Below, in pieces: positions 9,554 through 28,647 of a DNA stretch of 45,242 bases (positions are counted from its first letter, which is position 1; every line of letters begins with the position of its first letter). The translations under genes and the position numbers were made by a program. The stretch is from positions 1 to 45,242 of the forward strand of contig JABDCE010000017.1 in the NCBI GenBank assembly GCA_013288285.1, written 5' to 3'. Under the pieces are notes generated by a model that made no database searches, was not told the origin of the DNA, and saw nothing but the letters and a program-made list of their open reading frames with translations. The DNA is from Bacteroidota bacterium. Lineage in GTDB: Bacteria; Bacteroidota; Bacteroidia; Chitinophagales; Chitinophagaceae.

Positions 9554-10198
9554 ATGAAACAAATCCGTATTTTTTTAGCCTCCTCTAATGAACTAAAACC
9601 AGAAAGAGACAATTTTGAGATTGAGATATACCGCAAATGCAAGACTTGGTTTGACAGGGGTATTTTTCTTTACTTAGACATTTGGGAAGACCTGTCTGCA
9701 CGAATGGGGGCAAATGGCTCTCAAAGCGAATATGACAAAAAAGTAAAGAGTGCAGATCTGTTCGTTTTGCTGGGGTACACCAAGCTGGGCATGTATACAG
9801 CCGAGGAGTTTGATAATGCTATCGGCCAGTTCAAAGCGACCGACAAGCCATTTATTTTTACCTACTTCAAAAACACCACAGGGCCAGTGGAAGATAGCCT
9901 TACCGCATTCAAAGACAAGCTCTATAAGATGGGCCACTTTATCAGCCCTTTCACTGACTCTAACGATCTGTGGAATCAGTTCAACAAAGAACTGGACCGT
10001 CTGGATGCGGTATCGTTTACGAAAAATGAGCACCCCGAACCAACAGGAGCCGCCGCTATAAATGTTACCGGTAACAGCAACAATGTAATATCAGGAAATA
10101 CGAATAGCACCGTAACTGTAAATACAGGCAATACCAGTACACAGACCGCAGACAAAATATACAACATCAACAGTATTGACAGTGCGAATTTTTCTTAA
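9554..10198 (+). CDS. TIR/DUF4062-like domain protein, candidate conflict-system effector, with C-terminal N/G/T-rich repeat and terminal YNI-x(2)-I-x(2)-A-x-F motif
   Basis: MKQIRIFLASSNELKPERDNFEIEIYRK...ADLFVLLGYTKLGMYTAEEFDNAIGQFKATDKPFIFTYFK resembles TIR/DUF4062-like Rossmannoid effectors; C-terminus INVTGNSNNVISGNTNSTVTVNTGN...KIYNINSIDSANFS. Confidence 0.75.
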   Translation: MKQIRIFLASSNELKPERDNFEIEIYRKCKTWFDRGIFLYLDIWEDLSARMGANGSQSEYDKKVKSADLFVLLGYTKLGMYTAEEFDNAIGQFKATDKPFIFTYFKNTTGPVEDSLTAFKDKLYKMGHFISPFTDSNDLWNQFNKELDRLDAVSFTKNEHPEPTGAAAINVTGNSNNVISGNTNSTVTVNTGNTSTQTADKIYNINSIDSANFS

Positions 10199-10213
10199 AA
10201 AGAGCAGACGATA

Positions 10214-11461
10214 ATGGATACACCAGATAGTGCAGCTCCGGTAGCTGACGGAAACAAAACGTATAACATAGGGCAGATCAACAATGCTACTTTTGTACAG
10301 GAAACAGTGCAAGACCCGCCATTTAATGAAATACTTCTTGACAAGCTGATCAATGCCATAATACCATATAACCCAAAGGCAGAGCAGTTGCTAAGCTGGG
10401 CCGCCGGCCAGGATCCGAAGCCAGATATAAGTAACTACTCCATTTCCATACTCACCTATAGTTTTGTAGGCATCATAGGGATGCAGCTCACCAAGCTCTT
10501 TGCTATAGGTGCGGACTCTAAAAGCAACAGCAGGCGACACGACTATGTAGATATGTGCGTGGTAACTGCCAAAAGAGTGCTACAAATAATCTGCTTTGCC
10601 ATCATCTCTGATCTGTGGAATAAAGAAAAGGGCCACAGGTATGCCCTTACTGATGAACAAACAAAGAAAATTAATAACTTCTTTGTTACCCCTAACGAAC
10701 TGCCCTTAAGAGACTACCTGATACTACTGAGCAACCTGTGCGGTGTGTATGCCGGGAATTCTTTACCACTGCCGATCAGTGAGCTCTCGGCGATAGAAAG
10801 CCAGCTTACTGAGGGAGCGTTTTTTGATGCTTGCTGCAAACTGCAGGATATAAATGCGATCAAGAACACTGACGAAAAATACGCACCTAAAAATTGTATA
10901 GAAGCAGAAACGCAACTATCTGTGATATTGACAGCAGCAAGCTTCCTGGCTGCTTACAAGGTAGTATCGATCAAAAATATCGGTTATGAGGGCTTGCGGA
11001 ATACCGAAGGGCGTTACCTGCATAAATATGTGACACTGGGTCAGGACAGCGATCAGAATATAAACAGCGAGAAGATGAACTATGCCAACAACCCAATAAA
11101 TACAGATTCTGTTTTGCTGTACCGGGTGAGCAACCTGGACGATACTAACCTGTTTCCGGGTGTAAAGGAAACTGACATCATTAATATGTTCCCATTTATA
11201 ATAGACTATAACGCACTAACGGAGGAAACAGAAGGTGTGAAGATATGCTTTTATAGCTGCGTAGACTTACTCAACAATAAGGTCATGACCTATAGCTTCC
11301 TGGACGACAATAGCCCGCAAAAAATTACGTTCACCGACACGCAAGAGAATGACCCGCTGATCAATGATATAATTAAGGGCAAAGGAAAACGTACCGACCT
11401 GAAGTTAGATACTGTGTGGCGCCAGGTGAAGGAAGCGAAAGTAGCGATCATAGGCTCGTGA
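10214..11461 (+). CDS. Uncharacterised protein with N-terminal motif matching the C-terminus of the upstream effector candidate (possible adaptor)
   Basis: Starts 15 nt after the upstream stop; KTYNIGQINNATF at residues 15-27 (10256-10294); rest has no domain I recognise. Confidence 0.75.
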   Translation: MDTPDSAAPVADGNKTYNIGQINNATFVQETVQDPPFNEILLDKLINAIIPYNPKAEQLLSWAAGQDPKPDISNYSISILTYSFVGIIGMQLTKLFAIGADSKSNSRRHDYVDMCVVTAKRVLQIICFAIISDLWNKEKGHRYALTDEQTKKINNFFVTPNELPLRDYLILLSNLCGVYAGNSLPLPISELSAIESQLTEGAFFDACCKLQDINAIKNTDEKYAPKNCIEAETQLSVILTAASFLAAYKVVSIKNIGYEGLRNTEGRYLHKYVTLGQDSDQNINSEKMNYANNPINTDSVLLYRVSNLDDTNLFPGVKETDIINMFPFIIDYNALTEETEGVKICFYSCVDLLNNKVMTYSFLDDNSPQKITFTDTQENDPLINDIIKGKGKRTDLKLDTVWRQVKEAKVAIIGS

Positions 11462-11512
11462 CCCGAACAAGGTCGACACAAGTAAGAAGCACTCAATAAA
11501 CTACCCACCTGC

Positions 11513-13351
11513 ATGGACAAAATATACCCATTTAAATTCCTGGATTCTTACGGACAAGATGACAAAGAAGTATTCTTTGGCCGTAAAGCTGAAATAGATG
11601 CGCTTTACGAAATGGTCTTCCAAACCAGTATACTGATGGTGTATGGCGCATCAGGTACCGGAAAGACCAGCCTTATACAATGTGGACTGGCCGGCAGGTT
11701 CAAGTCGCACGACTGGCTGGCGATCTATGTCCGCAGGGGCGATAACCTTAACCGGTCTTTGGATAAAGCACTTGCAGAAAACGGCGCCAACGAAAAAATT
11801 CCGGATTTCGACATATTCAATACTACTAAAACTGCTGCCCCAGTTGCCGAGCTAACACCGCTGGCAAAATCATTCAAAGCTATTTATCTTAAAAATTTCC
11901 GTCCCATCTATCTCATCTTCGACCAGTTTGAAGAATTGTTTGTGATAGGTGATAAGACGGAACAAGAGGAGTTCATTAATACCGTACAGGAAATACTGCG
12001 GCTGGACCAGCCGGTGAAGATGATCTTCAGTATGCGGGAAGAATACCTGGGCAATCTGTTCGAATTTGAAAAGAGTGTACCCCAGCTCATGCGTAAGAAA
12101 TTGCGTGTGGAACCGATGAGCATTGACAAAGTACGGGAAGTGATTAATGGCATTGCAGCACTGAAAGAAACTTCATATGTAACCATAAAGGCTGGTGATG
12201 AAGGTCCCATTACGGAGAGTATCTTTCATAAAATAAAAGACAAAGACAAATCGCTAACTATACAACTCCCCTATCTGCAGGTATTCTTAGACAAACTGTA
12301 CCGCTCAAACACAGACGAAATAAAGCCGGAGGGAGTTCAGTACATCGATACCGAATTTACGAATGAAGCCATTACAAAAATGGGCAACATTGGTGACATA
12401 CTGCGCGACTTTCTTGATGAGCAAGTGGCCAGTGCCAGCAGTAAGCTCAGCAAAAGCGGTAGCCAGACAAGTGAAGATGATATCTGGGACATTCTGTCTC
12501 CGTTAGTGACCTTTGACGGCACGAAGAAACCAATGTCTATGGCAGCGCTACAAAAAGAGCTACCGAAGACAGAAAAGCCCGTTTTGGTTGCAGTAATAAA
12601 ACAATTTAAGGACAACCGGTTGCTGCGGCATACCGAAGAAGGCGATATATATGAACTGGCACATGACGCACTTGCCGGCCAGATAGCCAAAAAACGCTCC
12701 GTGGATGAAAAAGCTCTGATAGAAGTAAGAAGGATACTGACTATGCAGATAAGCCTGAACCAGGCCGGTTCTAATAATGGCATGCCGGAGTTACTGAGTA
12801 AAGCAAGGATGGATATCATTAACCCTTACAAGGATAAGATAACGGATCCAGACGAACTGGCTCTGATAAACGCCAGTAACAAGGCGATACAGAAGCAAAA
12901 AGAAGACGCTTTGGCAGAGGAGCTAGAGAAAAAGAAAAAAAGCAGGCAGCTGATTGCCGGGCTGGCGATCATACTCTCCGTTATGACCGTTTCATTTGTC
13001 TTTTCAATCTCCAAATATGTCGAAGCCAACCACGACAAACTATTAGCGGACACAGCTACGGCTAAAGCTAAATATGCGGAAACAAATGCGACAAAGAAAG
13101 AAGCTGAGACAAAAGAAACTCTGAAAGCACTGGTAAAACAAACAGCAATTTCAAAAGCAAAGGAAAAAGAAAGCTACGGCGACAGCTACCAGGACAATGG
13201 GAATAATGACTACGCACTGCAAATTTATAAAGAGGCTTTAGATTCGATTAAGGCCTATTCCGACGACAGCCTATATAAACAGATAGAACGGAAGAAAAAC
13301 GAATTAACTGTAACAACAACTCAAAGAAGTAGTCAAAAAAGAAAGCCATGA
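11513..13351 (+). CDS. nSTAND1-type STAND P-loop NTPase with C-terminal transmembrane segment and coiled/TPR-like tail
   Basis: YPFKFLDSYGQDDKEVFFGRKAEIDALYEMVFQTSILMVYGASGTGKTSLIQCGLAGRF (Walker A GASGTGKTS), RPIYLIFDQFEELFVIG (Walker B), TM RQLIAGLAIILSVMTVSFVFSISKYV (about 12950-13018). Confidence 0.88.
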   Translation: MDKIYPFKFLDSYGQDDKEVFFGRKAEIDALYEMVFQTSILMVYGASGTGKTSLIQCGLAGRFKSHDWLAIYVRRGDNLNRSLDKALAENGANEKIPDFDIFNTTKTAAPVAELTPLAKSFKAIYLKNFRPIYLIFDQFEELFVIGDKTEQEEFINTVQEILRLDQPVKMIFSMREEYLGNLFEFEKSVPQLMRKKLRVEPMSIDKVREVINGIAALKETSYVTIKAGDEGPITESIFHKIKDKDKSLTIQLPYLQVFLDKLYRSNTDEIKPEGVQYIDTEFTNEAITKMGNIGDILRDFLDEQVASASSKLSKSGSQTSEDDIWDILSPLVTFDGTKKPMSMAALQKELPKTEKPVLVAVIKQFKDNRLLRHTEEGDIYELAHDALAGQIAKKRSVDEKALIEVRRILTMQISLNQAGSNNGMPELLSKARMDIINPYKDKITDPDELALINASNKAIQKQKEDALAEELEKKKKSRQLIAGLAIILSVMTVSFVFSISKYVEANHDKLLADTATAKAKYAETNATKKEAETKETLKALVKQTAISKAKEKESYGDSYQDNGNNDYALQIYKEALDSIKAYSDDSLYKQIERKKNELTVTTTQRSSQKRKP

Positions 13352-16300
13352 TAAGGATAAGTATACTATTTTTTGTATTGCTGTATATACCTGCAATGGG
13401 ACAAAGCCCTGCATCACGCTACAAAAACGCGATGAGGGAGGGTGACCATTATTTTAAAATCAATAATTATAGCGAGGCGCTAAAGAAATACCAGGATGCA
13501 ATGATAGCGGCAAGAGAATGCCCCGATTGCACAGAGACTGGTAACACCGCAACAACGCCTCATGAGAAAATCGTTCAAGTTTTCGAACAAATTCAAAAGC
13601 AAAAAAACAAGTCCGATAGCCTGGCCAAACGAGCGAAACAAATGTATGAGGTAGCAAAAAATAAATCCAGAATAGCGTCATCCTATGAAGCCTCCGGCAA
13701 GGCATTTATTGCTATCTATAAAAATCATCTGCTTGCAGAGGGGCTAAGACAAGCTGCATCTGCGTACAGTATTGACGATAGTAATATGGATGCAAGAAAT
13801 GCACTTTATGCCAGTGTGTATGAATCGCAAGACAATCCCCACCTTGTATTTCCAATATCAACGGATACGAATAGCCACTTTATAAAATCTGTTATTTTCT
13901 CAAAAAATGGCAAGAAAAAAATAGTATTAAATGACGAGACCAGTTCAGGCAGTTTTGGAGGATCTGGTAACAATGACGATAACGTGAAACCAGTGGGACC
14001 AAAACTTTCAATCCCTTGTCCGGGCAATAAGGAAGTGCTTGTAATAGACGATTCGAACTACGTAAAAAAATGGGATACAGAAACCGGGCAGTATGAGAAT
14101 GACAGCGTTAAACTGTCTAGCGACCTGTCCTGCACATCAGCCGTATTTAGCGGCAATGGAAAAAGTCTCATCACTGCAGGGAATGGTTATCTTAATGTAT
14201 GGGATATGGCTTCCTGGACGTTAATTTCAGACATTAGAATGGATGGCGTTTACACATCCCCAGTTATTTCTGACAACGGGGCAAAAGCTTATGTAACTGT
14301 ATATGATTCTATTAAGGTAATTGACGCACTAACCGGAAAACAAACAAACTCATTTTTAATTGATGCGAATAATCCCCCATCCGCTATTAGCTTTTCGCCT
14401 GATGGCCGGTATTTACTGGTAGCAACAACATATGACACCCTTGACGCAAAAAACACTTCTGCGAAACTTTATGACCTTGAACAAAAAGACATATCTCTGG
14501 TCAGGGATTTCGATAGCCTGGTATTCGCCAGTTATACCCCTGACGGCAGATTTCTGTTCATAGGCCGGTCGGACTCCAGCGCTATACTTTACGACCTTAA
14601 AAAAAATACAGATACTATTAATTTCCTGAACCTTGGAAATGTACCTAACTCGATTATTTTTTCGCCGAACGGGAATAAAATAATACTCACTTTTACCGAC
14701 GAGACAATGGGGATAGGCACTTTATCCAAGGATAAATTCCAACTTTTTAACGGTAATGCTACCGATGCTGTGTTTTCACCAGATAGCAATAAGATCATCA
14801 CCATATACGACAATACTGTAAAACTATGGGATACGGGGAATTACGTTCGTGAAATCGCAACGCTTTCGGGTTCAGAAAATAATATCATAAAAGCAGGTTT
14901 CAGTGCCAACTCCAAAATCGTTTGGGCAATTTCGGACAATAAAGAGATCATACTATGGAACATCGAAAATTTCAACGAGAAAGGAACCTTGTACGGGAAT
15001 TGGGAATCAGCTAATTTTTCGGCTTTTTCAACCGATGGCAACCTGGTTTTTACCCTGCATAGAAATAAAGGGAAAATTGTCAGCGTCACCAACTCAGCCG
15101 ATTCAATTCCTATATTGGGATACATGGCTGCAAATACGAGGGGTGGTTTTTCCCCTGATAGCCGCAGGTTAGTTACCAGAGCATCAGATACCCTAAAAAT
15201 ATGGGACACCAAAACCGGAAAACTGGTGGGGAACCCTATAGGAAACGTTGCCGGCATTTTCAGCCTGGCAGGTTATTCGGCAGACAACAGAAATGTATTC
15301 CTTATTTATGAAGGAAAATTATCTTTGGTAGATGTGGCTGATGGCCGTCGAATACCTATAGACATTAGCGCTGACTCAGTCATATCCGCATCATTTTCAG
15401 CCGACAACCACCACTTAATGGCGCTTCAAAAAAACGGGACATTCAGCATATGGAATATTGATCGCAGCAGCACTCAACCAATTTTTACTACCAGTTGCAT
15501 CTCCGTTCTTTTTTCGCCCGACCGTAAAAGCGCATTACTGAAGTCTTTTTCAAAGGATACTAATTCGACAATGCGCTATAGAATTTCCAAGACCGGAACT
15601 CAGAACAAATCAGACACCTTGGTTGCTTACGTGAATACGGAGATATTGCTTCGGACAACTTTTAAAACCGAAGTTCTGAAGAAAGAGGATACTTTGACTA
15701 TATTCAAAAAATGCGATACTGCTTTTTATTCGCCCGATGGCAGAAGAATACTGGCGTATTCTTCGTCAGGATTCCCAGATGCTGATAACAGTAACGATAA
15801 CCATATTCTGCTCTGGAATATGGAAAACAGCCACAGCCTATTTTTTGAGACCCGTAAATCAAAGTATAATAATTTAAAAATAACAAAACCGTTTTTTTCT
15901 GCTAAAAATGAATTTATTTTTATGTCGGTCAACGACGCTACGGTTATATTTTATGATAACGGGCGGCAGGAAACAGGAACAGCACAATATAATAATCTAA
16001 GGAATGTTGTTTGTTCTCGTGACAATAAATCGTTTTTATGGATAATGGCAGGAGATATTGGCTATTATTTTAACCTTGACAGGGCGGTTAATCCAACGAA
16101 GATATCTCATGTGAGCGATGCTGTCTTTTCCCCCGACAGCAAGTATCTGCTCATTAAGTATTACAACACGTACAGATTGTTTGATACGACCGGTGAATTA
16201 GCAACTCTACCTATAGGAACAGCGCGCAGATATTTCTTTTCGGCTGACAGCAAGCGGATCATCACTCAATACGACAATAAACCGTCTAAGGTATGGCTTA

Positions 16301-16356
16301 TAGATCCCGCAGACATTATTGCGAACCTATATTCAAAATTCGGTCTCAAACATTAA
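13348..16356 (+). CDS. Secreted TPR plus WD40-like beta-propeller protein (candidate sensor)
   Basis: Signal peptide MIRISILFFVLLYIPAMGQ; N-terminal YKNAMREGDHYFKINNYSEALKKYQDAM (TPR-like); about 17-18 copies of FSPDG/FSADN...xLWD blades; ATGA overlap with the STAND gene. Confidence 0.87.
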   Translation: MIRISILFFVLLYIPAMGQSPASRYKNAMREGDHYFKINNYSEALKKYQDAMIAARECPDCTETGNTATTPHEKIVQVFEQIQKQKNKSDSLAKRAKQMYEVAKNKSRIASSYEASGKAFIAIYKNHLLAEGLRQAASAYSIDDSNMDARNALYASVYESQDNPHLVFPISTDTNSHFIKSVIFSKNGKKKIVLNDETSSGSFGGSGNNDDNVKPVGPKLSIPCPGNKEVLVIDDSNYVKKWDTETGQYENDSVKLSSDLSCTSAVFSGNGKSLITAGNGYLNVWDMASWTLISDIRMDGVYTSPVISDNGAKAYVTVYDSIKVIDALTGKQTNSFLIDANNPPSAISFSPDGRYLLVATTYDTLDAKNTSAKLYDLEQKDISLVRDFDSLVFASYTPDGRFLFIGRSDSSAILYDLKKNTDTINFLNLGNVPNSIIFSPNGNKIILTFTDETMGIGTLSKDKFQLFNGNATDAVFSPDSNKIITIYDNTVKLWDTGNYVREIATLSGSENNIIKAGFSANSKIVWAISDNKEIILWNIENFNEKGTLYGNWESANFSAFSTDGNLVFTLHRNKGKIVSVTNSADSIPILGYMAANTRGGFSPDSRRLVTRASDTLKIWDTKTGKLVGNPIGNVAGIFSLAGYSADNRNVFLIYEGKLSLVDVADGRRIPIDISADSVISASFSADNHHLMALQKNGTFSIWNIDRSSTQPIFTTSCISVLFSPDRKSALLKSFSKDTNSTMRYRISKTGTQNKSDTLVAYVNTEILLRTTFKTEVLKKEDTLTIFKKCDTAFYSPDGRRILAYSSSGFPDADNSNDNHILLWNMENSHSLFFETRKSKYNNLKITKPFFSAKNEFIFMSVNDATVIFYDNGRQETGTAQYNNLRNVVCSRDNKSFLWIMAGDIGYYFNLDRAVNPTKISHVSDAVFSPDSKYLLIKYYNTYRLFDTTGELATLPIGTARRYFFSADSKRIITQYDNKPSKVWLIDPADIIANLYSKFGLKH

Positions 16357-21276: not shown

Positions 21277-24200
21277 TTATTTTTTTACAAATACTTTTGT
21301 GCCGATCTTTATCCCATTGTTGCTAATAACGACCATGTAGACCCCCGGAACGAGGTCATGCACATCTATCACCCCGCTGCCCTGCTCAATTTTGCCTGTA
21401 TAACGTTCCTTACCAGATACATCAAACACTTTTGCAACAACTTCTCCAGGCAAGCTATTTCCCTTCAGTTCTATATTGATACTGGCATCGGCAGGGTTGG
21501 GGAATAAAAGTATCTCCAAATTGCCTGCGGCGTATACAGGCCGTATTGCGGTAGGTACATTATAATAACTCTTCTGCAGGCAACCATTATGCATGGTAAG
21601 TACCCAATAATTCTTCCGCAGGAGATCAGGGGCTGCGCTGGTGTAGTTCTGATTGACGGCACTTTTGATGATCGTTGAATCAAGCGTAAACGCATCGTCA
21701 TACCCCCATTGATAACTTTCAGCCGTATTGTCTGTGCACACAAACTCAGGGGAATAATAGAGCACCGTAACATTCGGAGTCCTGCCCTGCCCTACGGTAA
21801 AGGGGAACACATCAGTGCTGATACAATCGGAACCCGGGAATGACGTAGACAATGTTATAGTGCCTGTACCTGAGGTATTGAAGCTGATGAGACAGTACTG
21901 CCCATCCTTACCGGTGGCGTAAATGTCGGCATTAGCAGCACCCCAGGTGTACTTGCCCCCCTGCGGCAGCAACGAGTCTGTGCCGAAGTTCATATATTCT
22001 GTATTGGCGCACAGCAGGCTATCAGGGTGCGTAGTGATCCGCGTAGGTGGCGCAGTTTGATTGACCGTTATGGTATCACGTGCTACGTCTGTTCCGCAAC
22101 TGTTGGTATAGGTGTACGATATGGTAACGGTAGCTGCTGTTATGCCATTCACCAGACCGATGCTGTCAATGTCGGCGATCTTGTAATCGGCGCTACTCCA
22201 TAGCCCACCACCAATGCTATCGGTGAGCGCAATAGAAGCCCCGGTACAAACTTTCACCGGCCCGTGTATGACACCTGCATAAGGCAATGGGTTGATCTGG
22301 ATACGTGCATTAGCCGTGCCACAGCTATTGACCAGTGAATAAGTAACAACTGCCGTACCGGGATCCACGCCGGTAACAAGCCCGGACGATACATCGACGG
22401 CTGCAATACCCGTATCGCTGCTGCTCCATTGCCCGCCGGGCACCACCTCGGTAAGCAACGACCGAACGCCCTTGCAAAACGTAGTAGTACCTATAAGCGG
22501 CTGCAATACGGGGAATACAGTATCGAGTACCGATATCAAACAATGCGCCGGTGAGGAGTATGTGATGGTCATGGTGCCCATGAATACACCTGTAACGCTG
22601 CCTGAAGTAACGTCGACAACAGCGACCGATGTAGTACTACTGCTCCATGTGCCTCCGGCCAATGAATCGCTCAACATGGTTGTTGATCCCGCGCATAGGT
22701 GTGTCGCCCCGGTTATTATAGATGGGTCAGGGTTAACAGTATATGCCACGGTAGACATACAACCCGTGCCCAGCATATAAGTGATAGTAGTGGTACCTGC
22801 TGAAACGCCAAGAACAGTACCTGAACTAACGACAGCAACGGCAGTGTTACCACTACTCCACCCGCCCCCTGTTGTATCATTAGTCAGCAATGTAACCAGC
22901 CCGGCGCAAACATTTGTAATGCCTTTTATTGGTGCGGGTAAAGGATTTACAGTTACTACTGTACTTGCCTTGCAACCGGTATTGAAGGTGTAAGAAATGG
23001 TATCTGTACCCGGAGCCGAACCGGAGAACATACCGGTACTTCGGTTGATCGTTGCAACAACTGTATTGTGTGAAGTCCATGCGCCACCGGCATCTGCATC
23101 GCTGAGTGTGGTCTTATCCTTATTACAGATAACCGACAGCCCCACGATAGGCGCTGGTGATGAATTGACTGTTACCGGCTGCGTGACCTGGCAACCCGTG
23201 GAGAAACTATAGGTGATCATTGCTGTACCAGCCGATACACCAGAAACAATTCCCGACCCGGCATCAACAATCGCAGTAACTGTATTGCTACTATTCCAGC
23301 CACCGCCGGTTGCAGCATCACTTAGTGCAGTGGTTAGGCCTGTGCAAACACTGTCTATACCACTTATGGCGACCGGCATCGGGTTAACCGTTATCTCAGA
23401 GGTAGCAAAGCAGCCTGTAGGAGCAGTATAACTGATGGTTGTAGTACCAGCAATCAGGCTGGTCACAATTCCCGAACCCGGATCTACTGTAGCGACAACA
23501 GTATTGGCAGAGGTCCACGTTCCACCGGCAGCGTCAGACAGGGCTATTGAGTACCCAGCGCATACCACATTAGGGCCGGTTATAGGGGTGGTCAACTGGC
23601 CTACAGTAACTACCTGGGTAATGCCGCATCCCGTTGGTAACGTATAGGTGATGGTAGCTGTTCCGAAAGCGCTGCCCGATACTATGCCCAACGATGGGTC
23701 TACCGTGGCTATAGATGTATTGCTGCTGCTCCATGCACCACCATTGGTAGCATCTGACAATGTAGTAGTATATCCTACACAGATATGCGGGTCTCCGGAA
23801 ATAGCCAACGGCAGGCTGTTCACAGTAACTGTTGTAGAGGCCTTACAACCTCCCACATCAGCATAGGTTATGGTAGCCGTTCCGCTTTTTATGCCGGAGA
23901 CAATGCCAGTTCCTACACCGACGGTAGCAATTGTAGTATTTGCAGTATTCCATGATCCTGCGCCTGCAGGGTCGCTTAGCGACGTAGTGGCACCCGCACA
24001 TACACTCATGACGCCTGTTACGGCGGCGGGCAAGGTGTCAACGGTGACAGATGTGGTGAGAATACACCCCGCTGTGTTGGTATAGCTGATCGTGGCAGTA
24101 CCAGCGGCCTGTCCTGTAACCTTTCCTGTACCTAATGTGACCGTTGCAACTGTTGTATTTCCACTCGACCATGCACCACCGGTCGGCGCATCTGTAAGGG

Positions 24201-27200
24201 AAGCAACGGAGCCAAGACAAACATCTGACGGGCCTGTAATAGGAGTCACAGGCGCGGTTACCGTAATTATTTTTGATACATTGCAGCCAGTGTTGAGCGA
24301 ATAGATAATGGCAACCAATCCGGTGGCGACACCCGTGACAACACCTGTGCCAGGCCCCACAACGGCAAGGGACGTACTGCTTGTTGTCCAGTTGCCGCCA
24401 GCTACCGCATCAGTGAGCACTATGGCGCCGCCTATACATACCGCAGAAAGCCCGGTAATGAGTTTTGGCGACTGGTCTACGATAATATTGCTGTCTACAA
24501 AACAACCGCCTGTCAACTGGTAAGTGATCGATGCAGTACCGGGATTAACCCCTGTAACAATTCCCGAACCCGACCCTATAGACGCAATAGAGGCATCGCT
24601 GCTGGACCAGGTACCACCTGATGCTATATCACTAAAAGTATTAGTGAATCCCTGGCAGATACGCAGCGATCCTTTGATAGCAGGAGGAATAGCATTTACC
24701 GTAGTGATCATGGAACTGCTGCAACCCGATGGGAGTGTATACAAAATCGTTGTTGATGCCGGGGATACCGTATTGGCAAAACCGGTAGTACCGTCTATGG
24801 TCATAACCGAGGTGTTTGCGCTACTCCACACCCCCCCGGAAGACGTATCAGTAAACGTGCCGGTCTGTCCTAAACAGATGCCTGCCGGGCCCGAGACAGG
24901 GCCAGGCAATGGACTGACCACTACATTTTTGGTGATACTTAATTTACAGCCTGCTGCATTGCCCACAGTAAGCGTTACGGCGTGGGTACCGGCAACTGTA
25001 TAGGTGTAAGCCGGATTATTTAATGTGCTGGTAGCGCCTGTGCCAAAGCTCCATTTCCACGAATTCAACGGAGTAAGATAGGTAGTAGATGAGTCAAGAA
25101 ATGCTGTACTGGTGTTGAGGCAGGCATGGTGCGGAGAAAATGTAAAACCAGGAACGAGTGTATCGATCCTGATGGTATCTGCACCAAGGCTAAAGCTGCT
25201 GCATCCTTTTGCCGTATCTGTCAGTATCAGCTTTGGAATATAGGCGCCGAGAGCATACCGGTGAGTGATGGTAGTGGATGTGGTAGGGCCGGCAGTAGTT
25301 CCATCGCTGAAATCCCACGTAATGTTCAATGACCCTGATATCGTGGCTTTGAACGTTACAGGAGTAGATGAGCATGCTGATAATGGAGTATATGTGAATG
25401 CAGCTGACGACACACCAATGCTTACATTGCCTATAGCTGTATCCGTACACCCTGCTGTATTAACCACTTGCAATTTCACCCTGTAAGCGCCGGGCACTGT
25501 GTAGATATCGCCGGGGTTATTATTAGTGGAATGTGCACCATCCCCGAAAGACCATTGGTAAGACGAAGCGCCCGTACTGGTATTAATAAAATTCACTGTC
25601 AGCGGAGGACAGATGGCAAACGAGTCGTCCATGTGAAATGATGCAACGGGCAGTGAGTTCACAGTGATGTAACCGGCTTGCGTCATGGTATCGGTGCAAC
25701 CCAGTGCGTTTGTCGCAACCAGCTTTACGGTATATACTCCCGGCGCTATGTATCTATGGCTTGGCAATGCCAGGGTTGTAGTGGCGCCATCACCAAACAT
25801 CCATAAATAACTGACGGCTCCGGAAGAAGTATTGTTAAAGTTGATGTTGGTGTTGACGCAGATATACTGGCTGCTTGCAGAAAACGAAGCTGACGGTTTG
25901 CTCACTGTTGGGTGCGAAGCACTCGTGAACGTATCCATACAGCCTACATTATCTGTCACAATCTCCTGCACCGTAAATGCCCCCGAAGCAAGATAAGTAT
26001 GAGATGTAAGCGGAGCAGATAAGGCCAGCGAACTGCCATCGCCGTAAGTCCAGCTATATTTGGATATAAATGCACCTGCAACGTCTGTGGTTGCATCTGT
26101 AAACTTAACAGGTAACGGCGAACAACCGGTGCCCGGCGTAAACGTATAGTTTGCCACGGGTTTAGCCACTAAAATACTTTGTGATGCGGTATCAAAGCAT
26201 CCGTTGTTATCCGTGAGTATCAGCGTCACAGTGTCTAATCCCCTGCGCGAAAATGTGTGGTACACTGAGTCATACATTTTTGACGCGATTACAATATAAG
26301 GTATATGCGTGTCGGTAAGCACCCCATTCAGATACCACGCTGCCTTTGCTGCTGAAACTTCTACAATTCCTCCAGGTCCTACATAAGTGTTGATATTTGC
26401 ACCAATTGAGTCAACAGCATCGCGGCAGATGCTTGTTTTGTAAGGCTTGAAGGAGACAGACAGCCGCTCAAGGTATATATTCTGATAGCTGGTGTCCCGG
26501 CAGCCGTTCGTAGTATTATCAGTAGTGAGTGTTACAGTGTATGTGGATAGTGCAGGAAAAGAATGAGAAGGGTTTAATACCGTAGATGTAGTCCCATCTC
26601 CAAAGCTCCACAGGTGGTTATTGTCTGTATTTGCTGTGTCATAAAAATTAACCACATTGTCTGGTATGCACGCATACGTATAGTTAATTGTGGCGCCGGG
26701 CGCGTCAGCCGTATCATTCAACATTGCGGCAGGGCCCCCGCAACCATTGTAGTAAGCTATAAGAGTGGGATTATAGACGCCAGGCGTTTTATAAATCTGT
26801 ACAGGATTCGCCACGATGCTGTGGTTACCATCCGCAAAATCCCACTGATAACCATTGATAAGCCCTGTAGACGTAGACGTAAATGTGACCGGCTGCCCGG
26901 TACATTCGCGGCTCCGCGACATAGTAAACGAATTAACGGGCGGCACTGCACCGGTACTTACCGAATCTACGCCACTGGCTACGCAGCCGTTAGTGGTGCG
27001 GATATTGCAAGTAACCGGGTATACCCCCTGCGCCGTATAGGTATGTACCGGTGATGAAAGCGTAGACGTAGTACCATCACCAAAATCCCATGCATATGTA
27101 GCAATACCGTAAGGATAGGGGTAATTGACCAGGTTTGACGGCGGGAATGAAGCGAAAGGTGTGTATACCAACGCAGCAAGCGATGCCGAGTAAGTTACGG

Positions 27201-28647
27201 TAAGCGGTATGCACCCCTTATTGTCAGGAGTACCTTTAAGGTTCACAAAAAGGCTGTTCACTGAATCAATAATTTTCCCTACTGTGTCCTTGCAGCCGCT
27301 GGCATCAGTGAGGTACATAGTGATGCCATCAATTACCCCGCCCAGGTTATTTCCTATTGTTTTGGGGTACGTAAATGTTACCGTATTGCCAGACCCCAAC
27401 GGGCCATATAGCAACGAACTCCAGGAGACCGTAGAACCCGGCGGAACCAATGCGCTCATTGTGACAGGGGCCGGTGGCTGACATCCTTTAGAAATACTAA
27501 CTGTGCCCGTAGGCTGGTAAATATTTATCACCCGTGATATGCTATCGTAGCAGGTACCATCGTAGACAACCAGTTTTACAATATAGTTACCTGCCACGCT
27601 GTAAGCGTGCACAGCAGTATCTGAAGTTGATGTTGCCCCATCGCCGAATGACCAGCTGCTGGAGATATGAGGTGTGCTTGCGTTCTTGAAAGTTACCGAT
27701 GAATACAGGCATGCTTTTGTCACAGACGTATAACCCGCTGTGAGATTGCCTATTTTTACTGTGGCTGTCTGCACCATGCTATCGGTGCAGCCTGTCCCGT
27801 CTGTTACTCTGAGTGTTACATTGTTGGTGCCGCTGGTTGTATACGAATGGGTTGGGTTTGTGGCGACCGATGTACCACCATCACCGAACAACCAGGTATA
27901 AGACAATGGCGGCGTACCGGTAGTAAGATTGGAAAACGATGCCGTGGCAGGCGCTTTGCAGAAGAAGGAATTAGGTGTACTGAAACTCACTAATGCAGGC
28001 TGGTAGACATAGATATAACCACTCTGAAGTTTGGAACCGGTACAGCCTGCCTTGTTTACCGCCGACAGGGTAACATTGTAAGAGCCAGGCACAGCGTAGT
28101 TATACACGGGGCTTGTGGCAGTGCTGCCACCGCCATCGCCAAAGTTCCAGGTGTAGGATAGTGTGCCCCAGCAATTAGCGATACTGGTACTGGTGAAGGT
28201 AACAGGTGTGCCCGGACATACTGACCCACTGCTTGCAAAGAAATTTACAGTTGGCGCAGTATAGGCATTGATCACCAGGCTATACTTCTTGCTGCCGCCG
28301 GCATTAGATGCGGTAAGGGTGACCGTATATGAGCCCACAGAAAGATAACTGCCTGAGACATCAGTAGCCGACGAAGTAGTGCCATTGCCGAGATCCCAGG
28401 CATAGCTGGTGGCGCCGGTAGATGTATTGGTAAAGTGAACAGAGAACGGGGCGCAACCGGCAGTATCAGAAGCTGTAAAACCAACAGTGAGCTGCGCCTG
28501 TGCATCTGCTGAACATAAGCAGATGATAAAGAGGATCACACACTTCACTGCCAGCGTTTGCCGAAAAAAAAGTTGATATAAAACATTGGGTGTTTTATAG
28601 CGAATGATAGTGGTTAAGTATATTACAAATTGTAAGAAATTATTCAA
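21277..28647 (-). CDS. Giant secreted PKD/bacterial Ig-like repeat protein with T9SS type A C-terminal sorting domain
   Basis: 2456 aa; N-terminal half of ~14 PKD-like repeats (YxWxFGDGxTSTxxxPxHxY), then ~13 Ig/Big_2-like ~70-72 aa repeats (VCxG...LSDxxxGGxWSSxNTxIATVDxxxGxVxGxxxGTxTITYxxxxGC); C-term LEILLFPNPADASINIELKGN...GVYMVVISNNGIKIGTKVFVKK. Confidence 0.92.
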   Translation of the reverse strand: MNNFLQFVIYLTTIIRYKTPNVLYQLFFRQTLAVKCVILFIICLCSADAQAQLTVGFTASDTAGCAPFSVHFTNTSTGATSYAWDLGNGTTSSATDVSGSYLSVGSYTVTLTASNAGGSKKYSLVINAYTAPTVNFFASSGSVCPGTPVTFTSTSIANCWGTLSYTWNFGDGGGSTATSPVYNYAVPGSYNVTLSAVNKAGCTGSKLQSGYIYVYQPALVSFSTPNSFFCKAPATASFSNLTTGTPPLSYTWLFGDGGTSVATNPTHSYTTSGTNNVTLRVTDGTGCTDSMVQTATVKIGNLTAGYTSVTKACLYSSVTFKNASTPHISSSWSFGDGATSTSDTAVHAYSVAGNYIVKLVVYDGTCYDSISRVINIYQPTGTVSISKGCQPPAPVTMSALVPPGSTVSWSSLLYGPLGSGNTVTFTYPKTIGNNLGGVIDGITMYLTDASGCKDTVGKIIDSVNSLFVNLKGTPDNKGCIPLTVTYSASLAALVYTPFASFPPSNLVNYPYPYGIATYAWDFGDGTTSTLSSPVHTYTAQGVYPVTCNIRTTNGCVASGVDSVSTGAVPPVNSFTMSRSRECTGQPVTFTSTSTGLINGYQWDFADGNHSIVANPVQIYKTPGVYNPTLIAYYNGCGGPAAMLNDTADAPGATINYTYACIPDNVVNFYDTANTDNNHLWSFGDGTTSTVLNPSHSFPALSTYTVTLTTDNTTNGCRDTSYQNIYLERLSVSFKPYKTSICRDAVDSIGANINTYVGPGGIVEVSAAKAAWYLNGVLTDTHIPYIVIASKMYDSVYHTFSRRGLDTVTLILTDNNGCFDTASQSILVAKPVANYTFTPGTGCSPLPVKFTDATTDVAGAFISKYSWTYGDGSSLALSAPLTSHTYLASGAFTVQEIVTDNVGCMDTFTSASHPTVSKPSASFSASSQYICVNTNINFNNTSSGAVSYLWMFGDGATTTLALPSHRYIAPGVYTVKLVATNALGCTDTMTQAGYITVNSLPVASFHMDDSFAICPPLTVNFINTSTGASSYQWSFGDGAHSTNNNPGDIYTVPGAYRVKLQVVNTAGCTDTAIGNVSIGVSSAAFTYTPLSACSSTPVTFKATISGSLNITWDFSDGTTAGPTTSTTITHRYALGAYIPKLILTDTAKGCSSFSLGADTIRIDTLVPGFTFSPHHACLNTSTAFLDSSTTYLTPLNSWKWSFGTGATSTLNNPAYTYTVAGTHAVTLTVGNAAGCKLSITKNVVVSPLPGPVSGPAGICLGQTGTFTDTSSGGVWSSANTSVMTIDGTTGFANTVSPASTTILYTLPSGCSSSMITTVNAIPPAIKGSLRICQGFTNTFSDIASGGTWSSSDASIASIGSGSGIVTGVNPGTASITYQLTGGCFVDSNIIVDQSPKLITGLSAVCIGGAIVLTDAVAGGNWTTSSTSLAVVGPGTGVVTGVATGLVAIIYSLNTGCNVSKIITVTAPVTPITGPSDVCLGSVASLTDAPTGGAWSSGNTTVATVTLGTGKVTGQAAGTATISYTNTAGCILTTSVTVDTLPAAVTGVMSVCAGATTSLSDPAGAGSWNTANTTIATVGVGTGIVSGIKSGTATITYADVGGCKASTTVTVNSLPLAISGDPHICVGYTTTLSDATNGGAWSSSNTSIATVDPSLGIVSGSAFGTATITYTLPTGCGITQVVTVGQLTTPITGPNVVCAGYSIALSDAAGGTWTSANTVVATVDPGSGIVTSLIAGTTTISYTAPTGCFATSEITVNPMPVAISGIDSVCTGLTTALSDAATGGGWNSSNTVTAIVDAGSGIVSGVSAGTAMITYSFSTGCQVTQPVTVNSSPAPIVGLSVICNKDKTTLSDADAGGAWTSHNTVVATINRSTGMFSGSAPGTDTISYTFNTGCKASTVVTVNPLPAPIKGITNVCAGLVTLLTNDTTGGGWSSGNTAVAVVSSGTVLGVSAGTTTITYMLGTGCMSTVAYTVNPDPSIITGATHLCAGSTTMLSDSLAGGTWSSSTTSVAVVDVTSGSVTGVFMGTMTITYSSPAHCLISVLDTVFPVLQPLIGTTTFCKGVRSLLTEVVPGGQWSSSDTGIAAVDVSSGLVTGVDPGTAVVTYSLVNSCGTANARIQINPLPYAGVIHGPVKVCTGASIALTDSIGGGLWSSADYKIADIDSIGLVNGITAATVTISYTYTNSCGTDVARDTITVNQTAPPTRITTHPDSLLCANTEYMNFGTDSLLPQGGKYTWGAANADIYATGKDGQYCLISFNTSGTGTITLSTSFPGSDCISTDVFPFTVGQGRTPNVTVLYYSPEFVCTDNTAESYQWGYDDAFTLDSTIIKSAVNQNYTSAAPDLLRKNYWVLTMHNGCLQKSYYNVPTAIRPVYAAGNLEILLFPNPADASINIELKGNSLPGEVVAKVFDVSGKERYTGKIEQGSGVIDVHDLVPGVYMVVISNNGIKIGTKVFVKK

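Follow-up and report, generated by a model that had tools for sequence, protein, structure and literature searches.

Introduction

Characterized bacterial defences of the NLR/STAND type sense infection inside the cell. Here we analyse a stretch of 45,242 nucleotides from a Chitinophagaceae bacterium (Bacteroidota; assembly GCA_013288285.1, contig JABDCE010000017.1), hereafter the window, which carries an operon of four genes, A to D, built around a STAND ATPase. Comparison with related loci leads us to propose that A-D probably form a transmembrane receptor of the STAND/NLR type that is split between proteins and senses in the periplasm: the ATPase, C, is predicted to be anchored in the inner membrane, and the sensor, D, is predicted to be exported as a separate WD40 protein.

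The closest described systems share parts of this layout. The nSTAND1 conflict systems, in the accessible parts of their descriptions (Kaur et al. 2020/2021; PMC7159879, PMC8195603), likewise combine an nSTAND1 NTPase with caspase or TIR effectors, effector-associated domains and variable C-terminal domains; no such split form was found in those parts. The systems studied here differ in that the sensor lies beyond a transmembrane segment or in a separate exported protein, and in having a constant adaptor, B, that belongs to no named family. Among STAND NTPases diversified by diversity-generating retroelements (PMC10907252), nSTAND1 or NACHT domains go with CLec/FGE sensors and one target is predicted to be periplasmic, but in the accessible portion of that paper the sensor is fused to the STAND protein, and an exported protein that docks to the tail of a STAND is not described. 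The membrane-associated two-gene EACC1 systems (PMC7159879, System 4) pair a transmembrane component with a caspase component near the membrane; the conserved transmembrane protein there is EACC1 rather than a STAND, and the description mentions no WD40 or LRR protein exported as a partner. A STAND protein with a separate exported docking sensor was not described in the open-access literature searched, which is weak evidence, most subscription papers lying outside it.

Results and discussion

Layout of the operon and predicted topology

The operon consists of the following genes:

9554-16356 (+): operon of 4 genes, A, B, C and D, all on the same strand
9554..10198 (+): gene A, 214 amino acids, putative DUF4062/TIR-like effector with a low-complexity linker
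10214..11461 (+): gene B, 415 amino acids, constant adaptor of no known family
11513..13351 (+): gene C, 612 amino acids, nSTAND1 NTPase with a single predicted transmembrane segment and a helical TPR-like tail
13348..16356 (+): gene D, 1002 amino acids, predicted exported WD40 beta-propeller protein

Instead of the single chain of an NLR-like protein, effector, adaptor, STAND and sensor are thus four separate genes, the last two overlapping by 4 bp (ATGA). C belongs to the nSTAND1 clade by its profile match (Pfam PF20703, E = 2.8e-43 over residues 6-388, 149 bits against a cut-off of 27) and by its Walker A, Walker B and winged-helix HD motifs. The Walker A motif G.SGTGK.SLI, the FDQFEEL motif and the HD motif are conserved in 22 homologues, with the motif residues invariant, and its fold matches are STAND ATPases, Apaf-1 and CED-4. 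D has WD40 and beta-propeller Pfam matches over residues ~224-750. The following features of C and D bear on topology and docking:

12950..13012 (+): predicted transmembrane segment of C, LIAGLAIILSVMTVSFVFSIS, residues 480-500, placed by hydropathy directly after KKKKSR
13013..13348 (+): predicted periplasmic tail of C, residues 501-612 (112 residues)
13178-13237 (+): TPR-like stretch GDSYQDNGNNDYALQIYKEA of the C tail, residues 556-575
13348..13401 (+): predicted signal peptide of D, residues 1-18, with the cut before Gln19
13441..13500 (+): TPR-like N-terminal motif GDHYFKINNYSEALKKYQDA of mature D, residues 32-51

The initial annotation had placed one hydrophobic segment after the basic KKKKSR stretch (residues 473-478, 12929-12946), and this is what we find: LIAGLAIILSVMTVSFVFSIS is the only segment of its kind in C (Kyte-Doolittle mean 2.41 over 19 residues), and lysines and arginines number 7 among the 20 residues preceding it, against 3 on the other side. 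The annotation had continued the protein with a charged, helical, TPR-like tail of about 110 residues. Its length and character hold, but its supposed end, NNDYALQIYKEALDSIKAY, corresponds to residues 564-582, and 30 more residues follow (SDDSLYKQ...SSQKRKP). The AlphaFold2 model gives the tail a long helix at 510-561, then helices at 565-578 and 586-608, with a predicted local distance difference test (pLDDT) score of ~90 for residues 545-600. The overlapping next gene, announced as having a signal peptide and a TPR-like N-terminus, is D: its first 18 residues, MIRISILFFVLLYIPAMG, followed by QS, resemble a type I signal peptide, and GDHYFKINNYSEALKKYQDA lies shortly after the predicted cut.

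To compare relatives, one genome per species was scanned, which yielded 78 loci, most of them in Bacteroidota; the evidence on topology consists of hydropathy, charge and this comparison. All 66 homologues of C with a detectable transmembrane segment carry it just after the ATPase, at about residues 400-545, with no segment of comparable hydrophobicity ahead of residue 400 in any of them. The flank on the NTPase side is richer in lysine and arginine in 63 of the 66 and poorer in none, as expected under the positive-inside rule. The arrangement originally suggested, with the ATPase inside, the tail outside and the WD40 protein exported, is therefore supported by comparison: the C tail is predicted to be periplasmic and D to be exported. 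A complex that is cytoplasmic throughout, with a non-functional hydrophobic segment and signal peptide and with a phage protein as its trigger, as in Avs-type systems, would agree with the cytoplasmic location of most characterized bacterial STAND defences and with the frequent role of WD40 domains as cytoplasmic scaffolds. We consider it very improbable and rejected it on the conservation of these features: many divergent homologues share the transmembrane segment, the charge asymmetry and the signal peptide, and the glutamine following the predicted cleavage site (position +1) is invariant in the 18 aligned D proteins.

Sensors in one chain or in a separate gene

About 20 related operons have the split layout, with interchangeable sensors and effectors. 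In the other form, a long tail after the transmembrane segment of the STAND protein itself carries the sensor, which can be a WD40 domain (e.g. L060, L070, L072, L074, L076), an LRR domain (L042, L050, L051) or an FGE-like domain (L037); in Algoriphagus the in-chain tail is a domain of 160 amino acids. Split operons have a tail of mostly 65-131 amino acids, followed by an overlapping or close gene for a predicted exported sensor. Among complete homologues, a gene with a signal peptide lies downstream of 18 of the 22 tails under 135 amino acids versus 5 of the 41 longer ones (Fisher p=6e-8, a descriptive value, since the boundary of 135 was picked after the tail lengths had been seen). One more short-tailed case with an exported gene, L065, was missed by the signal-peptide heuristic.

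The two kinds of sensor are homologous, as D proteins align with in-chain tails. From residue 162 onward, the D protein of L058 aligns with the in-chain tail of L076 from its residue 6, at 41% identity, and LRR-type D proteins align with the tails of L050 and L051; the clearest of these alignments run from just past the transmembrane segment onward. Because WD40 repeats generally resemble each other, the LRR cases and the linker preceding the propeller in L058/L076 weigh most. What the split form has in addition is the C tail and the N-terminus of D, precisely the pair that the initial annotation had flagged as possibly interacting. On the ATPase tree, changes between split and in-chain forms occurred at least 7 times.

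The distribution of the family is patchy (5/148, 11/388 and 2/396 genomes). Searches by class and phylum contributed few further close relatives, the majority of them in-chain or incomplete, and a family search around G861 chiefly returned known loci. The split form recurs widely and goes with LRR and lectin-type sensors in addition to WD40, beyond the single WD40 case from which the idea arose.

Further exported proteins occur next to some in-chain STAND genes. In the closest relatives (L007:10930-12000, and L011 from 10965), the STAND with its in-chain sensor precedes an exported protein that begins in a TPR-like manner; the remainder of this protein resembles an outer-membrane barrel in L007, a possible link between STAND and outer membrane. 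A convergent gene, conserved in Algoriphagus, Mariniflexile and Subsaximicrobium, directly follows the in-chain STAND and encodes an exported protein of ~530-840 amino acids (L010:9983-11575 on the minus strand, and likewise at L012, L014, L016, L019, L022 and L025-L028).

Covariation of the C tail with the D N-terminus

The stretches GDSYQDNGNNDYALQIYKEA and GDHYFKINNYSEALKKYQDA both fit the TPR spacing G..[YLF]-x8-A...[FY]..A. This pattern occurs just 26 times in the 447,431 residues of local open reading frames, so that two hits, one in a short tail and one in the N-terminus of its neighbour, are unlikely by chance. Both partners have the strict spacing in the window, L009, L024 and L058, and the C side has it in L063; other tail types consist of helical pieces with a different pattern.

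Across relatives, distances between C tails closely follow those between D N-termini (Mantel r 0.79, and 0.78 as a partial r that controls for the ATPase core; n=20, permutation p=2e-4). The partial correlation decreases to 0.60 (n=17) and 0.54 (n=16) when near-duplicates are removed (p=2.5e-4), and the ATPase core correlates with the tail at 0.20 or less. One tail type can go with a WD40, an LRR or a lectin/FGE-like sensor. The proposal of a receptor divided between C and D thus draws support from sensors located past the membrane segment in in-chain relatives, from short tails accompanied by an exported D and from this covariation.

Part of the correlation could reflect joint transfer of one cassette and not contact: the C tail and the 5' end of D adjoin in the DNA, so that joint transfer contributes to it. 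C might then be a membrane protein and D a periplasmic one that share an operon without any TPR-like docking, D serving separately, for instance by scavenging or binding envelope material, and their joint travel being a matter of adjacency. Neighbouring segments moving as a recombination cassette would covary in a similar way, and the scatter of tail types over the ATPase tree fits such movement. On the other hand, relatives carry the same sensor modules in-chain after the transmembrane segment, and the pieces that mark the split form are exactly those at the junction. Sensors are also swapped within one tail type while the D N-terminus keeps to its tail, which whole-cassette moves would not lead one to expect; transfer of the whole cassette was rejected on this ground as the full cause of the covariation. 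We regard the absence of docking as unlikely.

Effector, adaptor and a shared terminal motif

The upstream genes A and B, outside the scope of the initial annotation, would complete the pathway. DUF4062 proteins are TIR-like NADases of bacterial anti-phage defence (PMC13174449). Pfam detects DUF4062 in 5 of 11 homologues of A (best E = 1.5e-5) and TIR_2 in 5 of 11 (best 0.001); as these matches concern only the homologues, we stop short of assigning the A of the window itself clearly to DUF4062. The family shares the start IRIFLASS.ELK..RD and invariant residues E45, E59 and E85, and past its domain of ~160 amino acids A has only the linker and a terminal motif. A PDB profile search with the A alignment gave nothing meaningful. 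Swarozyc (PMC13174449) is comparable in its DUF4062/TIR-like effector domain, to the extent that A homologues match it, but Swarozyc consists of one protein, in which an auxiliary domain binds the phage portal; A (214 amino acids) has no such C-terminal portal-binding domain and ends in the signalling motif. At other loci the position of A is taken by CHAT, caspase, patatin or EAD11 proteins. A gene for a patatin-like phospholipase lies ahead of the adaptor-STAND pair in L009 (by Pfam) and in L063 (by sequence likeness).

Most of these operons include B, a protein of ~390 amino acids across the family. It has no Pfam, NCBIfam or PADLOC match, and such family hits as were obtained belong to effectors fused to B. 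Its AlphaFold2 model is confident (pLDDT 82), with 32 disordered N-terminal residues, and a PDB fold search with the model returned nothing at E<=0.001. A and B carry a matching pair of motifs:

10157..10192 (+): motif IYNINSIDSANF, one residue short of the C-terminus of A
10259..10294 (+): motif TYNIGQINNATF in the N-terminal region of B, which matches the A motif

The pattern [IVLT][YF]NI..I..A.F has 33 hits in 445,640 amino acids (a count that takes the window copy once more, through L001), and all 33 lie at the C-terminal end of the effector in position A or in the N-terminal region of B. It has no hit in A-B fusions. The pair is also present at L007, L008, L015, L024, L031, L036, L040, L043, L065 and L078. 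Bacterial amyloid signalling sequences (BASS; PMC8086366, PMC12261475) show the same pairing, in which the effector ends and the product of the adjacent gene begins with short motifs that match each other and are lost in fusions, but in BASS the receiving motif is on the NLR/STAND N-terminus, whereas here it is on B, encoded upstream of the STAND gene. From its sequence, the A/B motif pair is possibly a new BASS family.

Proposed mechanism and its weighing

We propose the following course of events. Once exported to the periplasm, D would fold there into a WD40 sensor and would dock, by its TPR-like N-terminus, on the short helical tail of C, which the single transmembrane helix would hold in the periplasm. 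A ligand or an envelope change at D would act through tail and helix on the STAND ATPase in the cytoplasm, leading it to exchange ADP for ATP and to oligomerize. The oligomer would recruit or cluster B, whose initial YNI..I..A.F motif would act as a template for its counterpart at the C-terminus of A and so activate A; A, as a TIR-like (DUF4062) enzyme, would likely destroy NAD+ and stop the cell. Gene order, predicted membrane segment and signal peptide, domain types, motif pairing, module swapping and tail/D covariation are read from the sequences; tail-D contact, a periplasmic trigger, templating of A by B, an NADase output and a role in defence are what we infer. Sensing and docking at D lean on the comparative evidence and the later steps on knowledge of the families, so that our confidence in the full effector pathway is lower than in the split receptor.

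Besides joint transfer, a number of observations weigh against the proposal. The transmembrane and signal-peptide calls are based on hydropathy heuristics. Pfam finds no TPR in C or D, where the motifs are single and below its detection, and the strict TPR spacing is confined to one tail type. The window's own A matches neither DUF4062 nor TIR_2 in Pfam. A tie to phage is equally missing from the searches made: PADLOC profiles gave no convincing match to A-D, either for Avs/AVAST or for other catalogued systems (weak matches on C only, mad8 at E 0.003 and RTasCOG2852 at E 0.4), a viral scan with the STAND alignment found no relative, no defence-island context was found around the loci, and their neighbours, where identifiable, are housekeeping or surface-protein genes.

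These last results, together with the periplasmic location predicted for the trigger, would suit a real receptor that serves envelope-stress or developmental signalling instead of phage defence, with A modifying a nucleotide as a signal and not to kill the cell. Such a role concerns the output only and is compatible with the split receptor. Effector swapping (CHAT, caspase, patatin, EAD11, DUF4062) and patchy distribution are typical of conflict systems and argue for defence; we hold the signalling role to be the less probable one, while giving it appreciable weight.

Other features of the genome and window

The genome assembly has a completeness of 57.67%. It includes a B-C paralogue (L002, G000:C103:3100-4410) whose C protein is 57% identical to that of the window and is truncated where the contig ends, just as the transmembrane segment begins. 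Searches of A, B and D against NCBIfam yielded no useful match. A gene on the minus strand of the window (21277-28647) encodes a protein of 2456 amino acids with many PKD and bacterial Ig-like repeats, likely a surface protein unrelated to the operon.

Significance

Whether these operons form a widespread receptor class is, in our estimate, evenly balanced: such a class, with the NLR sensor detached from its STAND ATPase and moved across the inner membrane, would combine an exported WD40, LRR or lectin-type sensor, a matched TPR-like pair, a membrane-anchored STAND, a new adaptor and an amyloid-like motif leading to interchangeable death effectors. Several of its parts lend themselves to testing: the matched pair of tail and D N-terminus, the constant adaptor, the effector motif that predicts its partner and the exchangeable sensors. 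Animal Toll-like receptors similarly join an extracytoplasmic LRR/propeller sensor, one transmembrane pass and TIR-type output via an adaptor; no homology is claimed, and here the sensor would reach the adaptor by way of a STAND ATPase and may be a protein of its own. If the proposal is true, a STAND protein that reads a periplasmic sensor would allow attack to be detected at the envelope, either before the genome enters or as it does so, and the system would be a bacterial counterpart, in layout, of the Toll-like receptors.

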